DNA of 64,000 bases from Salisaeta longa DSM 21114 (GTDB lineage Bacteria > Bacteroidota > Rhodothermia > Rhodothermales > Salinibacteraceae): contig NZ_ATTH01000001.1 in assembly GCF_000419585.1 (NCBI RefSeq), forward strand, positions 2,006,005 through 2,070,004. Direction: 5' to 3'. Position 1 is the stretch's first letter. Each line of letters starts with the position of its first letter. Positions 54,152-61,486 of the stretch are shown here, in pieces. The translations under genes and the position numbers were made by a program. Under the pieces are notes generated by a model. It saw only the letters and a list, made by a program, of their open reading frames with translations. It did no database searches and was not told where the DNA came from.

Positions 54152-54340
54152 CGGTGCGAATGCGTCCGAAACGAGCACTGCGCTGAAGGTCGTAAGGCCC
54201 GCCCTGACGCCGCACAGCGCGCCTGCGGTATTCTCTGCCGATCTTTTCACGCCGCCCGCGGCACGCGCGGGGCGATACGTCGTAGAGCACTCCTAGCGCT
54301 TTTGCTCTATGCTCGCTCCGTTCCGTTTGCTGTACGGCCC

Positions 54341-57235
54341 ATGACGCAGACCCTCGACGCCGCCCCTACGCAAGATCCGGTGATTGCCAACGCCTCCCCC
54401 GAGGCCCGCGCCAAAGCCCGCGACCATATCGTGGTGCGGGGCGCCCGGCAACACAACCTCAAAGACATCTCGCTCGACATCCCGCGCAACCGCCTCGTGG
54501 TGTTTACCGGCCCCTCGGGCTCGGGCAAGTCCAGCCTCTGCTTCGACACCATCTACGCCGAGGGCCAGCGCCGCTACGTGGAGAGCCTCAGCGCGTACGC
54601 CCGCCAGTTCCTGGAGCGGATGGACAAGCCCGACGCGGATCTTATCACCGGCCTCGCCCCCGCCATCGCCATCGAGCAAAAAGCCGCGGGGAAAAATCCG
54701 CGCTCGACGGTGGCCACCCAGACCGAGATTTACGACCACCTGCGGCTTCTCTTTGCCCGCATTGGCACCACCATCTCGCCGATCAGTGGGGAGCCCGTTA
54801 CCAAAGATACGCCCCGCAGCCTGGCGCTAGCGTTGGAGGAGCGCCTGGAGGACGGGACGCGCTTTTACCTGTGCTTCCCCGTCCCCGAACACCGCGACAT
54901 TGCCCTGCGCGACGAGCTCAAGAGCCTGCGCGAACAGGGCTTTTACCGCATCGTGCTGCGTCCCACCGAAAAGCAAGCCGCCGATGGCGCGCAGCCCGAG
55001 GTGTTTGACCTCAACGAAACGCCGCCTTCTACGGTGAACAACTATGGGCGCGACCGGCTGCTCGTACTGGTTGACCGTCTGAAGGTGAAGGCGGGCGACG
55101 AAGACACCCGCTCGCGCATCGCAGCGTCGGCCGAGCAAGCCTTTACCGAGGGGCCCGGCGTGTGCATGATTCAGCCGGTGCGCCGCGACGGCCCCACGCC
55201 CGCGCCGCTTCGCTTCAGCAAGTTTTTTGAACGCGACGGCCGCCGCTTCGAGGAGCCCACGCCGCTCATGTTCAGCTTTAACAGCCCGGTGGGCGCGTGC
55301 CCCACGTGCCAGGGCTTTGGGCGCGTGCCGGGCATCGACCCCGACCTGGTCGTTCCCAACAAGGAGCTGTCCATCCGCGAAGGCGCGCTCGCGCCCTTCC
55401 GCACCGACAAATGGCAGAAGCACTTCAAGAAGCTCATCGCGGTGGCCTCGGAGGAAGGTCTCAACATCGACTGCCCCTACCGCGAGCTGGACGACTGGGA
55501 GCGCACCCTCATCTGGGACGGCAAGGGCGACTACATTGGCCTGCACGGCTTCTTCGAGTTTCTGAATAAGCGCTCCTACAAAACCCATTACCGCATCTTC
55601 CGGGCCCGCTTTCGCGGCTACTCCACCTGTCCCGATTGCCAGGGCTACCGCGTGAACGAGGACGCGCGCTGCGTGAAGATCAACGGCAAGCACATCGGCG
55701 AGGTGTGCGCCATGACCACCGTAGCGGCGCGCGACTTCTTCGAAGGGCTCCGCTTGTCTGCTCACGAAGAGGAAGTGGCCGGCCGGGTGATGGAGGAGCT
55801 CCGCAAACGCAGCCGGTACCTGGTGGACGTGGGCCTCACGTACCTCACCCTCGACCGCCTGGCCCAAACGCTCTCGGGCGGCGAAACGCAGCGCATCAAC
55901 CTGTCGACGTCGCTGGGCTCCTCGCTTGTCGGATCGCTGTACGTGCTCGACGAACCCACGATTGGCCTGCATCCGCGCGACAACGACCGCCTGCTCGACA
56001 TCCTGCGGCGCCTGCGCGACCTTGGCAACTCGGTGCTTGTGGTTGAGCACGACCCGGCCACCATGCGGGCCGCGGATCAGCTCATTGACATGGGCCCGCG
56101 CTCGGGCGCCTTCGGCGGTGAGGTCACGTTTCAGGGGACGTACGAGGACATCCTGGAGGCCGAGGACTCGCTTACCGGGCGGTACCTGAGCGGGCGCGAG
56201 GCCATCGGCACGCCCGCAGAGCGCCGCGCGGTGAATGACGAGCGCTGCATCATCGTGGAAAACGCCCGCCAGCACAACCTGAAGCACCTCGACGTGCGCT
56301 TTCCGCTCGACATGATTACGTGCGTCACCGGCGTCAGCGGATCGGGCAAATCGACCCTCACCAACCAAACCCTGTACGAGGGGCTCGACCGGCTGAAGGG
56401 CGGCAGCGGCGACAACAAAGTGGGCGCCCACGATGCCATTCGCGGCCACCATCGCATCGACGCGGTGGAATTGGTCGATCAGCAACCCATTGGCCGGACG
56501 CCGCGCTCCAACCCGGCCACCTACACCGGTGCCTTCGACGGCATCCGCAAGCTCTTTTCCGAGACGCGCCAGTCGCAGATTCACGGCTACGCGCCCGGGT
56601 TCTTTAGCTTCAACGTGGCCGGGGGGCGCTGTGAGGCCTGTAAGGGAGAGGGCGTCGTGAAGGTGGAGATGCAGTTCCTGGCCGACCTGTACCTGGAGTG
56701 CGAAGCCTGCAACGGCCAGCGCTACAAGCAGGAAGTGCTAAGCGTGACGTATAACGGCAAAAACATCGCCGATGTGCTAGAGATGACCGTCGACGAGGCC
56801 GCAGCGTTCTTTGCGGGCGAGCGGTCGGTCACCAACAAGCTGGAGGTGCTGCAAGACATTGGCTTGGGCTACCTGACGCTCGGGCAGCCGTCCACTACGC
56901 TCTCGGGCGGCGAAGCGCAGCGCATCAAACTGGCCAGCCACCTCAGCGGCCGCCACACCGACCGCCGCCTGTACATTTTCGACGAACCCACCACCGGCCT
57001 CCACTTCAACGACATCAAGAAGCTGCTGCACGCCTTCGATCAGCTCGTAGCGCACGGCCACTCGGTCGTCATTGTGGAGCACAACCTGGACGTGATTGCC
57101 TACGCCGACTACGTCATTGACCTGGGGCCCGAGGGTGGCGATGCGGGGGGCGAGGTTGTCGTGGCCGGAACGCCGGAAACGGTCGCGGCGCATCCCACCA
57201 GCCACACGGGACGCCATCTGCGCGAGATCCTTTAA
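54341..57235 (+). CDS. uvrA: Excinuclease ABC subunit A
   Basis: A 964-residue DNA damage-recognition ATPase with two ABC modules: Walker A FTGPSGSGKSSL and TGVSGSGKSTL, signatures LSGGETQRI and LSGGEAQRI, and Walker B LYVLDEPTIGL and LYIFDEPTTGL. Zinc-binding pairs are seen in CPTCQGFG, CPDCQGYR, CEACKGEG and CEACNGQR. The early CPxCG of proteobacterial UvrA is replaced by TISPISG, as in Bacteroidota. Full length. A thirteen-codon upstream extension is not conserved-looking; ATG 54341 is used. Confidence 0.97.
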   Translation: MTQTLDAAPTQDPVIANASPEARAKARDHIVVRGARQHNLKDISLDIPRNRLVVFTGPSGSGKSSLCFDTIYAEGQRRYVESLSAYARQFLERMDKPDADLITGLAPAIAIEQKAAGKNPRSTVATQTEIYDHLRLLFARIGTTISPISGEPVTKDTPRSLALALEERLEDGTRFYLCFPVPEHRDIALRDELKSLREQGFYRIVLRPTEKQAADGAQPEVFDLNETPPSTVNNYGRDRLLVLVDRLKVKAGDEDTRSRIAASAEQAFTEGPGVCMIQPVRRDGPTPAPLRFSKFFERDGRRFEEPTPLMFSFNSPVGACPTCQGFGRVPGIDPDLVVPNKELSIREGALAPFRTDKWQKHFKKLIAVASEEGLNIDCPYRELDDWERTLIWDGKGDYIGLHGFFEFLNKRSYKTHYRIFRARFRGYSTCPDCQGYRVNEDARCVKINGKHIGEVCAMTTVAARDFFEGLRLSAHEEEVAGRVMEELRKRSRYLVDVGLTYLTLDRLAQTLSGGETQRINLSTSLGSSLVGSLYVLDEPTIGLHPRDNDRLLDILRRLRDLGNSVLVVEHDPATMRAADQLIDMGPRSGAFGGEVTFQGTYEDILEAEDSLTGRYLSGREAIGTPAERRAVNDERCIIVENARQHNLKHLDVRFPLDMITCVTGVSGSGKSTLTNQTLYEGLDRLKGGSGDNKVGAHDAIRGHHRIDAVELVDQQPIGRTPRSNPATYTGAFDGIRKLFSETRQSQIHGYAPGFFSFNVAGGRCEACKGEGVVKVEMQFLADLYLECEACNGQRYKQEVLSVTYNGKNIADVLEMTVDEAAAFFAGERSVTNKLEVLQDIGLGYLTLGQPSTTLSGGEAQRIKLASHLSGRHTDRRLYIFDEPTTGLHFNDIKKLLHAFDQLVAHGHSVVIVEHNLDVIAYADYVIDLGPEGGDAGGEVVVAGTPETVAAHPTSHTGRHLREIL

Positions 57236-57238
57236 GTT

Positions 57239-57261
57239 AGAGACCGTTCTCTTTAGATTTT
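57239..57261 (+). terminator. Possible weak terminator after uvrA
   Basis: AGAGA and TCTCT pair around CCGT (57239-57252) and are followed by TTAGATTTT. The stem is only five base pairs, so at best it is partly effective. It lies between uvrA and the low-GC ATPase gene. Confidence 0.3.
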
Positions 57262-57297
57262 CCAACGTATCCTGCGTCAATAAAGTGGGTCGAACGC

Positions 57298-58467
57298 ATG
57301 AGCTCCCGTATACTTTCGCTTCAACTTCAAGGCTACCGGCCCTTTAGAGATCTTAGCGCTCAACTGGATAATCTGGAAGTTATCGCAGGAGCTAACGGAT
57401 CTGGCAAGTCGAGTTTATTTGAGTTTCTGCGATTCCTTCGAAACTCGATTTACAGCGATATTCCACCGGAGATTGTGGAAGGCTCAATCGGCCAGCGCAT
57501 CTTTCATGTCGCAGGGCCCGACCGATTTCGATGGACGGTGGAGATAGATACAGGGCATCCCGTTCCGCTTCACTATGAAGGAGAACTACTGGGGCCGGTA
57601 GGCAAAACACATGTAGCAAGTGAATCAGTGAAGACCGCCGAACCACTAGGGCAAACCCATGACGAGCCGTATATTTTCATGGACATTCGGGAGCGCGAAG
57701 GGGTCGTCAACGAAGCGGGCGATTTAAACAAGCAAGATATTTCGCTCAAGCGACCCAATCAGCTCGCTTTGAGCGCTATGACGAATCCGGCACTCGATAC
57801 GCTTTACAAACTTCGAGAATACATTCGCGGATGGCGGTTCTACAACGCCTTCAATATCAACAACCAGGCGATCCGGCGTTCGGTGCCCATTGAGCAAGAA
57901 CCGGTCTTGCATGAGGACGCAGGCAATTTGAGTTCGGTCCTGCATTATCTGATGACCGAACACCGCACAGCATTCGACGAACTGCAGCATCACTTGCGCA
58001 TGGCGGTGCCCGGCTTTAAAGGGCTCAACGTGAAGGCACGCGGCGGGCCTGGAGAGGTGATCGCCTTTTGGCAGGAAGGGAGCGTCGATGAAGAGCTTAG
58101 CCTAGCTGATCTCTCGGACGGAATTCTCCGACTTATCTGCTGGATCACTCTGTCGGTTCACCCCAGCCCTCCAACGCTCATTTGCATTGACGAACCGGGG
58201 CAAGGCGTACACCCACGCACCCTTCCGATCCTGGCCGGTCTCTTTCAGAAAGTGGCAGAACGCACGCAGGTCCTCTTGGCCACGCACAATTCGTACTTTT
58301 TAAAGCAGTTCGATATTGATCAGATCGCTGTTATGCGAAAGGAGGATGGGGGGGCACAATTCCTGAAACCGAAGAATTCGAAGGTGCTCATGTACAACCT
58401 CGAAGAGTTCGGCACGGAAGAGCTGGAAGCCATGCATCGGAGCGATGAATTGGAGCGTTTGGCATGA
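57298..58467 (+). CDS. AAA ATPase of the OLD/SMC-like (AAA_21) type
   Basis: A 389-residue ABC-type ATPase related to the ATPase domains of OLD nucleases and RecF/SMC proteins. Walker A is GANGSGKSS (31-39), a signature-like LSDG is at 272-275, Walker B LICIDEP at 294-300, and the switch His in ATH at 328-330. The middle (about 90-240) is a variable helical insert. There is no fused nuclease domain; instead the next gene, overlapping by four bases (ATGA), encodes a TOPRIM-like protein. ATPase plus separate TOPRIM is the layout of PARIS and some OLD-like defence pairs, so an anti-phage role is inferred. A hand-counted 60-base sample (57421-57480) is 45% GC against 63% in uvrA (56281-56340), which suggests horizontal gain. 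Confidence 0.85.
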   Translation: MSSRILSLQLQGYRPFRDLSAQLDNLEVIAGANGSGKSSLFEFLRFLRNSIYSDIPPEIVEGSIGQRIFHVAGPDRFRWTVEIDTGHPVPLHYEGELLGPVGKTHVASESVKTAEPLGQTHDEPYIFMDIREREGVVNEAGDLNKQDISLKRPNQLALSAMTNPALDTLYKLREYIRGWRFYNAFNINNQAIRRSVPIEQEPVLHEDAGNLSSVLHYLMTEHRTAFDELQHHLRMAVPGFKGLNVKARGGPGEVIAFWQEGSVDEELSLADLSDGILRLICWITLSVHPSPPTLICIDEPGQGVHPRTLPILAGLFQKVAERTQVLLATHNSYFLKQFDIDQIAVMRKEDGGAQFLKPKNSKVLMYNLEEFGTEELEAMHRSDELERLA

Positions 58468-59102
58468 ACGTTATCGTGTATGTGGAGGGCCCGTCGGATG
58501 CTAATGCCATGGAAGCGTTGCTAGCCCCTCTCATAAAAGAAAAATTGCGGCGGGGGATACATATCAAATTCTTTGGGGCCCCAACAGGACATAAGAAGAA
58601 ATCGGTTCTTCTCAAGGTGCCCGTCCGGGCGGTAAACATCCTGCGCAACAGGCCGAAAGCACGTGTGGTAGCCTTGCCTGACCTGTATCCCCCAAATGCA
58701 GGTTTTCCCCATGAAACTGTAGAGGAGCTTCGTGAAGGAATGCAGGAAACGTTTCGTGCCCACGTGCAGGAAAAAGGCCTTCAGGACGCCCGTCTGGGGC
58801 AGCGCTTCGAGGCGTTCTGTTTCAAGCACGATCTGGAGGCTCTTGTCCTTGCTGCTGAGAATTCACTCGGTGCACGACTTGGCACCGACTCGCTCCCTGT
58901 CTCTTGGCAGACACCTGTCGAAGACCAAAATCATGATAAACCGCCCAAGCGCATTGTGGAAGAGCTTTTCGAAGCGCACGGCACTCGCTACCGCGGCGCC
59001 ATTGATGCGCCACTTATTCTGTCGAGGGCCCGGTACGAGGACATCGTTGAGCAATGTCCACAGGGCTTTGGGCCATTCGTGGAGTTTCTCGAACGTCTGT
59101 GA
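58464..59102 (+). CDS. DUF4276 (TOPRIM-like) protein
   Basis: A 212-residue protein that matches DUF4276 in pattern: VYVEGPSDANAMEALL with Glu8 and Asp12 at the N terminus, ARVVALPDLYPPN with Asp73, and FKHDLEALVLA with His122 and Glu125. The Glu..Asp spacing and strand order are those of OLD-family TOPRIM nuclease domains, in which these acids hold Mg2+. Its start overlaps the ATPase stop by four bases, so the two proteins are made together. I infer it to be the nuclease or effector arm controlled by the ATPase; biochemical function is not established for the family. Confidence 0.82.
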   Translation: MNVIVYVEGPSDANAMEALLAPLIKEKLRRGIHIKFFGAPTGHKKKSVLLKVPVRAVNILRNRPKARVVALPDLYPPNAGFPHETVEELREGMQETFRAHVQEKGLQDARLGQRFEAFCFKHDLEALVLAAENSLGARLGTDSLPVSWQTPVEDQNHDKPPKRIVEELFEAHGTRYRGAIDAPLILSRARYEDIVEQCPQGFGPFVEFLERL

Positions 59103-59169
59103 GGCGCCAGATTGGGTGCGTGGTGGTCGCGGGGGCTGCAGACCATAGGTCACGTTGTAACCCCAGGCG

Positions 59170-59784
59170 CTACGTCTGCTTCTGCAGGATCTCCTGAACC
59201 GGCAAGGCCTCAAGGGTTGGCAGCGCCTCCACCGCAAGCGTATCGCCGCGCGTTGCACGCGTGATCGTGGTGTAGCGCCCCGCCTCGGGCCCGCGGGCCA
59301 CTTCCACCGTCTCGGCTGCTAGGTCGACGAGCCAGTACTCGGGGATGCCGGCGGCCGCGTAGCGCGGCCGCTTCTCCGTGCGGTCAAAGTCCGCACTTGT
59401 GTCGGCCACTTCAATGAGCAGCAGCACGTCGTCGGGGATGGGCGTGCGGTCTTGCGGCGCATCGGGGCGCAGCAGCACCAGATCGGGCTCCGGCTCGCTG
59501 TGTGGGGTCAGGCGCACGGGGTTCTGCACGCTAATTCGCGCTAGCGGTGCACCCGAGTGATAAAGGCGCCGGGCGAACAGTTCGTTGAGGCGGTTGACGC
59601 AGTGCAGATGCTTCGATCCGATCGGAGACATGGCGACGATGCGGCCGTCTAGCAGTTCGACGCGGCTATCTTCTGTTAGGATGCCAGCTGCAGCGAGGGC
59701 ATGGTATTCCTCTACCGTAAATGGGCGCTCTCGCTGCATCAAACGCTGCGACGGCGGACGCGGCCCTGTAGCGACGTTAGCCAT
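59170..59784 (-). CDS. Uma2-family (PD-(D/E)xK-like) protein
   Basis: A 204-residue Uma2 protein. Core motifs: FTVEEYHALAAAGIL, RVELLDGRIVAMSPIG, SEPEPDLVLLRP with the catalytic Asp, LLLIEVADTSADFD with the second acid, and RPRYAAAGIPEYWLVDL. It is closer to the common cyanobacterial form than the copy at 32.7 kb. The frame continues upstream to 59922, but the conserved part begins after ATG 59784. It is convergent with the ATPase/DUF4276 pair, 67 bases apart; no direct link is shown. Confidence 0.9.
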   Translation of the reverse strand: MANVATGPRPPSQRLMQRERPFTVEEYHALAAAGILTEDSRVELLDGRIVAMSPIGSKHLHCVNRLNELFARRLYHSGAPLARISVQNPVRLTPHSEPEPDLVLLRPDAPQDRTPIPDDVLLLIEVADTSADFDRTEKRPRYAAAGIPEYWLVDLAAETVEVARGPEAGRYTTITRATRGDTLAVEALPTLEALPVQEILQKQT

Positions 59785-60139
59785 ATGTCCTGCCCACACT
59801 TGAACCGAGGGTGTACGCGAACTTACACGCTTGAGGTACGCCCCTTCGACCGCAAGCGGTTCCGAGCGCCGCGGAAAGAGCCGCCCCTCCATCACGGGCG
59901 CGCGCTCACGTCGGTTTTTCAAACACAGCTTAATTTTTACACCGCAGCACGCGACAGGACCACGCGAGACTAAATATTTTGGGCGATTTATCGATTGGCG
60001 CTACAAAATACGGTGTAAGCGCTTTTATGCCCTAACAACTTGCACTACAAGTCCCTATCACATAGAATATATTTCGTAACGTGATCAATTAGACGTTTTT
60101 CTTTCGCCTGTTCGTCTCATACGCCAAAATAATGCTGGT
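59785..60139 (+). other. AT-rich region between the Uma2 gene and amtB
   Basis: About 355 bases of divergent promoter space, clearly richer in A and T than its surroundings from about 59930 to 60130. No reading frame is convincing. TGTAAGCGCTTTTA at 60014-60027 differs in one base from the first palindrome upstream of susC (48561) and may be a LacI-type operator for amtB. No clear NtrC or sigma-54 site was seen. Confidence 0.35.
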
Positions 60140-61486
60140 ATGATGCGTTTCGTCCTTTGCTGTGCGGTACTGCTGTTCGTGCCACTAGCGGCGCACGGCG
60201 CGCCCCAAGAAGCGCCGGAGGCCGCTGCTGTGCAGTTGCACCTGAACTACGTGTGGACCATTCTGGCGGCGTGCATGGTCTTCTTGATGCAGGCCGGCTT
60301 TGCCTTGTTGGAAACGGGCTTCACACGGGCCAAGAACGCCGTCAACATCATCATGAAGAACGTGATGGATGCTGGCGCCGGCGTCATCGCCTTCTTTCTG
60401 GTGGGCTTCGGGCTGATGTTCGGTTCGTCGTGGGGCGGCCTCGTAGGAACGACGGGGTTTGCGCTTCAGGGGCTTGCCGACGCAGCGTCTACGTCCTGGA
60501 CCTACGCTTTCTTTTTCTTTCAGGCGGTGTTTGCGGCCACGGCGGCCACGATCGTTTCGGGGGCGGTGGCCGAGCGCATCAAGTTTAGCGGCTACCTCGT
60601 GTTTTCGATTGCCATCACGGCCGTCATCTATCCGGTTGTTGGATCGTGGGCGTGGGGCGGACTCCTGGCGGGTGGCGGCTGGCTGGAGGGCCTGGGCTTT
60701 ATCGACTTCGCCGGATCCACGGTCGTGCACTCGGTGGGCGGATGGGCCGCGCTGGCGGGTGCATTGGTCCTGGGCCCACGCGCTGGTGCGTACGACGCCG
60801 CCGGTCGGCCGCGCGACATCCCGGGCCATAGCTTGCCCCTGGCCGCGCTGGGCGTGTTCATCTTGTGGTTTGGCTGGTTCGGCTTCAACGCCGGCTCCAC
60901 CACGGCGGGCACCACGAGCATTGCCCTCATTGCGCTGAACACATTCCTCGCGGCGGGCGCGGGCGCGGTCGGGGCCATGGCCTACACCTGGATCGTGCAT
61001 GGCACGCCCGATGCCCCCATGACGCTGAACGGCGTACTGGCGGGCCTCGTGGGAATTACCGCGGGCTGCGCAGCCCTTGCGCCCGCGTTTGCGCTGCTCA
61101 GCGGCGCCGTTGCGGGCGTCCTGGTGGTTATCGCAACGCAGGCCCTCCGCCGCATTATCGACGACCCGGTGGGCGCGGTGGCCGTACACGGCGTCTGCGG
61201 CGTGTGGGGCACGCTCGCCGCCGGCCTCTTTGCAAGCAGCGGGTTCTCCCTCGCGCAGGTGGGTGTGCAGGCGCTGGGCGCGCTCGCTGCTTTTCTGTGG
61301 ACGTTCCCGCTCAGCTATGGGCTGTTTTGGACGCTGGACCGCACGCTGGGCCTGCGCATCAACGGCTCGCTCGAAGATGTGGGCCTCGATTTGCACGAAC
61401 ACGACGTCCGCGCCTATCCGGAGTTCATCGCGGCCCGCGGCGAGACGGGCGACGGTACGTCGGTTCCTGCAACGGTGCAGTCCTGA
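60140..61486 (+). CDS. amtB: Ammonium transporter
   Basis: A 448-residue Amt-family channel. A signal-like start (MMRFVLCCAVLLFVPLAAHG) is followed by 11 helices. Family marks: ETGFTRAKNAVNIIMKN after TM1, GSTVVHSVGGWAAL with the first pore His, and AVHGVCGVWGTLAAGLF with the second. The C-terminal tail DVGLDLHEHDVRAYPE is the PII-interacting region. It carries ammonium inward. No glnK is adjacent; the only PII-like gene in the window is in the metal operon and belongs to a different branch. Confidence 0.95.
   Translation: MMRFVLCCAVLLFVPLAAHGAPQEAPEAAAVQLHLNYVWTILAACMVFLMQAGFALLETGFTRAKNAVNIIMKNVMDAGAGVIAFFLVGFGLMFGSSWGGLVGTTGFALQGLADAASTSWTYAFFFFQAVFAATAATIVSGAVAERIKFSGYLVFSIAITAVIYPVVGSWAWGGLLAGGGWLEGLGFIDFAGSTVVHSVGGWAALAGALVLGPRAGAYDAAGRPRDIPGHSLPLAALGVFILWFGWFGFNAGSTTAGTTSIALIALNTFLAAGAGAVGAMAYTWIVHGTPDAPMTLNGVLAGLVGITAGCAALAPAFALLSGAVAGVLVVIATQALRRIIDDPVGAVAVHGVCGVWGTLAAGLFASSGFSLAQVGVQALGALAAFLWTFPLSYGLFWTLDRTLGLRINGSLEDVGLDLHEHDVRAYPEFIAARGETGDGTSVPATVQS

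Follow-up and report, generated by a model that had tools for sequence, protein, structure and literature searches.

The question raised by this locus is whether two adjacent genes lying just behind uvrA (positions 57298-59102 of the window, i.e., the whole 64,000-nt stretch of DNA that was analysed) form an anti-phage system. In the list of open reading frames, gene 1 (57298..58467, + strand) encodes an ABC/OLD-type ATPase of 389 aa and gene 2 (58464..59102, + strand) a DUF4276 protein of 212 aa. The two genes had been described in an earlier note on this DNA as overlapping by ATGA, and the frames do share the nucleotides 58464..58467 (+), in which the ATPase stop meets the DUF4276 start. The same 4-nt overlap recurs in two homologous loci (L013 and L014) and translation of the two genes is likely coupled. 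A gap of 62 bp (57236..57297, +) separates the uvrA stop codon from the ATPase gene and marks the left edge of the insert. A Uma2-family gene (59170-59922; putative restriction endonuclease by its Pfam name) is convergent with the pair and probably unrelated to it. It was ruled out as a third member by its opposite strand and normal GC content.

The ATPase matches Pfam AAA_21 with 95 bits (cut-off 27), and the Pfam search found no TOPRIM or other nuclease domain in it. It carries a Walker A motif (GANGSGKS, residues 31-38; 57388..57411, +), an ABC signature (LSDG, residues 272-275; 58111..58122, +), a Walker B motif with the catalytic Glu299 (LICIDEP, residues 294-300; 58177..58197, +) and an H-loop His330. 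Among 13 divergent ATPases G31, N33, G34, G36, and K37 are invariant, and S273, G275, E299, and P300 nearly so. The description of gene 1 as an ATPase with all ATP-binding motifs and without a nuclease is therefore correct. The nearest solved folds to its AF2 model (pLDDT 85) are PtuA of Septu and retron effectors, followed by SMC and Rad50 heads. In the ATPase tree the window protein forms one sub-clade with the homologues from G014 (a genome of the same family), L013 (Acidobacteriota) and L014; the stem of this sub-clade is 1.47 changes per site long and its support is 100/100.

The product of gene 2 matches DUF4276 (PF14103) with 66 bits (cut-off 30.2) over all 192 profile positions. An AF2 model (pLDDT 87) was built from a ten-sequence alignment. 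In Foldseek its four best solved matches are C-terminal TOPRIM regions of OLD proteins (6nk8/6njv; E values 4e-4 to 1.3e-3), which are significant yet modest (TM ~0.5), and unrelated alpha/beta folds rank lower. These fold matches, the VEGxxD motif and an invariant Asp at a predicted strand end support assigning the modelled protein a TOPRIM fold that most resembles the corresponding region of OLD nucleases. The earlier proposal of an ATPase with a separately encoded TOPRIM-type partner is thus supported. Three acidic residues are invariant in ten divergent partners: Glu8 in TOPRIM motif 1 (VEGPSD; 58485..58487, +), Asp73 in motif 2 (PDLY; 58680..58682, +) and Glu125 (58836..58838, +). These had all been listed as kept, together with His122, which dropped out of the list since it is Tyr in the closest homologues (L013 and L014). 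The second Asp of the canonical DxD in motif 2 is Tyr here (DxY). The main DUF4276 branch usually has DxY, and DxD is found in other branches. With only one Asp in motif 2, catalysis is not certain, and the protein is a predicted metal-dependent TOPRIM nuclease. Searching the PDB by sequence with this protein returned no match, and only the fold search was informative. A tblastn search against plasmids also gave no match, though DUF4276 genes adjoin the ATPase matches there, so single-sequence searches with this protein are too weak. The literature search, whose scope did not include bioRxiv preprints, found no mention of DUF4276 or PF14103.

The earlier note knew of no characterised function for the pairing, which implied that it was new. 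This implied novelty does not hold, as PADLOC already has models for both proteins. The ATPase matches HEC-01A (PDLC04175) with 182 bits (E value 4e-54, residues 3-376). The DUF4276 protein matches HEC-01B (PDLC04188) weakly, with 43 bits (E value 1e-11, residues 2-200 of 212), and HEC-01B is the sole PADLOC family that it matches. Because both matches are nearly full-length, we place the window pair, as a divergent member, in a candidate defence family that has already been published. The two genes are adjacent on one strand in the window (with the ATGA overlap), their order and strand are those of HEC-01, and relatives of the pair are embedded in Hma-like and R-M systems as in HEC-01. It differs in that its ATPase belongs to a separate, long-branched sub-clade and that the window copy stands alone behind uvrA, not inside a defence operon. 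We treat embedding in Hma or other defence systems as the context in which HEC-01 was discovered and not as a requirement on each copy. The guilt-by-embedding study of Payne et al., a bioRxiv preprint of 2024, is reportedly the source of the HEC families. HEC stands for "Hma-embedded candidate". The study (doi 10.1101/2024.01.29.577857) is cited in PMC12255303 and, as the guilt-by-embedding study, in PMC12988326, and our description of HEC-01 rests on citing papers and on the PADLOC model names. Several HECs, HEC-06 being named, are active in assays according to one of these papers (PMC12988326), and HEC-01 occurs in Desulfovibrio piger genomes (PMC12724379). Whether HEC-01 acts against phages was stated nowhere in the literature searched, which contained no bioRxiv preprints.

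Among relatives the two genes are almost always paired. An ATPase gene is adjacent in 28 of the 28 loci that were collected by DUF4276 alone (L046-L073). At the ATPase loci whose partner was missed by the first profile, the neighbour is mostly DUF4276-like with the same motifs, and on viral contigs a DUF4276/TOPRIM-like gene comes next after most of the ATPases, which were found without requiring a partner. A DUF4276 gene is lacking beside some of the plasmid ATPases (25-30% identity), and these were left out of the evidence for the pair. Viral contigs scanned with two sub-clade alignments (A3 and A4) yielded no relatives. A different, deeply separate pair of ATPase and DUF4276-like genes with a VEGxLD motif was seen in other genomes of the family, at L005, L006, and L007 (genomes G016, G021, and G011). 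Closely related versions of the pair occur on a plasmid of Meiothermus and in a genome from the same order as the window (L036 and L076, ATPases ~0.19 changes per site apart), which suggests a transfer between phyla.

The composition of the pair is foreign to the window. Its GC content is 53.5%, as compared with 65.1% for uvrA and 63.6% for the window, and the GC3 of its genes is 58 and 56 versus 85 in uvrA. It falls 3.5 s.d. under the window mean for stretches of its length, and no other 1.8 kb of the window is as poor in GC; outside the pair the minimum for a stretch of this size is 57.5%. The genes are richer in GC than the 45% given in the earlier note, a value reached only in the 62-bp gap before them (45.2%). 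The earlier note had also held that a core locus shared by all related genomes, with no defence neighbours, would speak against a defence system. The proposal withstands this check: PF14103 was found over the cut-off in only two of 25 genomes of the family that were searched, those of the window and of G014, and three further genomes of the family gave weak matches of a different DUF4276 branch.

G014 belongs to another genus of the family. Its pair (locus L110) is 73% and 61% identical to that of the window and likewise lies directly behind uvrA, starting at the same point. Next comes a diverged duplicate, ~240 bp long, of the 3' end of uvrA (C12 7798-8040) and then sequence matching G004, a genome of the same genus as G014; a cluster of tRNA-Gly/Cys/Val genes lies further downstream of the duplicate. 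In G004 the site is empty (locus L111), with uvrA leading straight into the downstream region. No pair follows uvrA in G002, G003, and G005, whose UvrA is closer to that of the window (80-81%). This distribution is better explained if the pair came in horizontally, through recombination at the 3' end of uvrA, than by descent with many losses, though just two filled uvrA sites were found and the window has no uvrA duplicate. The copy in G014 has 63-64% GC, which is ordinary for its genome neighbourhood and may mean that each copy arrived on its own. More tentatively, the uvrA 3' end could be a recurrent landing site for a minimal 1.8-kb integrase-less defence cassette, entering by recombination across a co-transferred uvrA tail, and this HEC-01 sub-clade could at the same time have a TOPRIM chemistry (DxY) and a trigger unlike those of PARIS; we regard this combined proposal as doubtful.

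The location raises the alternative that the pair is a DNA-repair or chromosome-maintenance accessory of uvrA, in which an SMC/Rad50-like ATPase and a TOPRIM nuclease process DNA ends and are kept beside uvrA for that reason. The pair follows uvrA directly in two genera of the family, the predicted fold of its ATPase resembles Rad50/SMC heads, and the archaeal OLD-family ATPase Cran1 is an essential cell-cycle factor and not defensive (PMC12796447). We consider this role improbable all the same, since none of the other genomes examined has the pair behind uvrA, even where UvrA is closer, the L013 homologue does not adjoin uvrA, GC and GC3 of the pair are foreign in the window, and relatives occur in R-M systems, on plasmids and on viral contigs. 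The genome has two uvrA-like genes (in the regions 54344-61486 of the window and G000:C1:2205559-2208414). In several relatives (e.g., G007) an ammonium transporter gene adjoins the second uvrA; in the window it is found on the far side of the first uvrA and the pair, which is a local rearrangement.

Enrichment of ATPase-DUF4276 neighbours in defence islands, which had been named as a check, was examined at 20 loci of the phylum (three genes on each side, PADLOC at 1e-25) and at control positions in the same genomes. A link was found at the family level: 89 PADLOC families occur near the pair and 9 in the controls, family counts that overstate the contrast because several PADLOC models match one gene. 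Counted by locus, R-M genes are present at five of the 20 loci and at none of the 20 controls (one-sided Fisher p ~0.02). Three pairs adjoin type III R-M Mod and Res genes (L123, L127, and L133), and type I R-M genes are found at at least two further loci (L120 and one more). Matches to 'mad3' among the neighbours were left out of the defence counts since the mad3 model (PDLC04135) also matches UvrA (54302-57235) at 5e-86; single mad3 hits may be false MADS positives. Two Aeromonas plasmids have the order Mod-ATPase-DUF4276-Res, with the pair inside a methylase/helicase type III-like operon, and in a third plasmid the pair adjoins SNF2 and methylase genes. It adjoins methylase and Mrr genes in an Ideonella plasmid. 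In a Meiothermus plasmid it lies inside a type I R-M system, with hsdS and a DUF4433/macro-domain (DarTG-like) pair on one side and hsdR on the other. Within the window's own sub-clade, L015 (54-55% identity) stands directly after a PglX/type IIG-like gene. Beside the window copy no defence system was found, its neighbours being housekeeping genes only.

Many copies lie on plasmids and some on viral contigs, which would also fit a module whose targets are not phages but plasmids or other mobile elements, or else a selfish cassette of the addiction type. The embedding inside R-M operons is typical of anti-phage candidates, there is no antitoxin-like small partner, and the AAA_21 label is a generic ATPase name; this alternative is in our judgement unlikely. 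A further alternative is that the window copy is a decaying, inactive remnant, to which its lack of defence partners, its atypical composition and the Tyr in place of the second motif-2 Asp would point. Both reading frames are intact, every ATPase motif is kept, the residues are common to ~60%-identical homologues in other phyla, and DxY is the usual form of the main DUF4276 branch. An inactive remnant is therefore very improbable.

The possible anti-phage role raised in the earlier note is well supported at the family level by the link to defence loci and mobile elements, and the pair is patchy in distribution and foreign in composition; we hold a defence role of the pair to be highly probable. 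The whole reading that we favour, and consider probable, is that of a HEC-01-type anti-phage module of two genes, a sensor ATPase and a nuclease, which was acquired horizontally and inserted just behind uvrA. The new elements are the evidence for a TOPRIM fold in DUF4276, the divergent sub-clade and the site of insertion at uvrA. As the HEC-01 family is already catalogued, this is a refinement and not a discovery. DUF4276, a domain of unknown function, is linked by it with the TOPRIM fold and the logic of OLD-type defence, and it offers three residues to mutate. It also suggests that an ATPase with a separate TOPRIM nuclease is a broad architecture of which PARIS is only one branch, and the uvrA sites with and without the insert hint at a way in which small modules that lack their own recombinase may move.

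PARIS, consisting of AriA and AriB, is a class 4 OLD system. In both, an ABC/OLD-type ATPase and a separately encoded TOPRIM protein are specified by adjacent genes. If the pair works like PARIS and other OLD-type systems, the ATPase and the DUF4276 protein would form a complex, and the ATPase would sense either infection or the impairment of another defence system. Its ATP cycle would release or activate the DUF4276 subunit, which could cut nucleic acid (tRNA or DNA) with a bound metal and so stop the growth of the phage or the cell. A sensor with a released nuclease is our best guess because this design is common to PARIS, in which phage triggers are sensed by AriA, a hexameric ABC ATPase, and the TOPRIM nuclease AriB is set free by it to cut tRNA (PMC12409363). 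We infer the trigger, the target and a preformed complex from this analogy, and give a PARIS-like mechanism about an even chance. The pair differs from PARIS in its partner protein: it was stated earlier that DUF4276 is not DUF4435 (AriB), and the window protein indeed has no match to DUF4435/AriB in Pfam or PADLOC. The AriA models match the window ATPase with 84 bits, as compared with 182 bits for HEC-01A. The OLD proteins of classes 1 to 3 (P2 Old, GajA, retron OLD) have the C-terminal TOPRIM region that is the closest fold to DUF4276, but ATPase and TOPRIM are in one polypeptide there and in two ORFs here, and neither a GajB helicase nor a reverse transcriptase lies beside the window pair. 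AbiL and MADS are also listed as systems of an ABC ATPase plus TOPRIM (PMC12409363). The MADS ATPase is related, as MAD3 matches the window ATPase, but with 102.7 bits against a cut-off of 420 bits, and the window locus has no MADS operon. AbiLi matches with 76 bits and no AbiLii partner is present, the DUF4276 protein matching only HEC-01B in PADLOC. PtuA of Septu and retrons is the nearest fold to the window ATPase, but the partner is DUF4276 and not an HNH protein PtuB. PARIS, MADS, AbiL, and Septu are thus ruled out as the identity of the pair by its partner.
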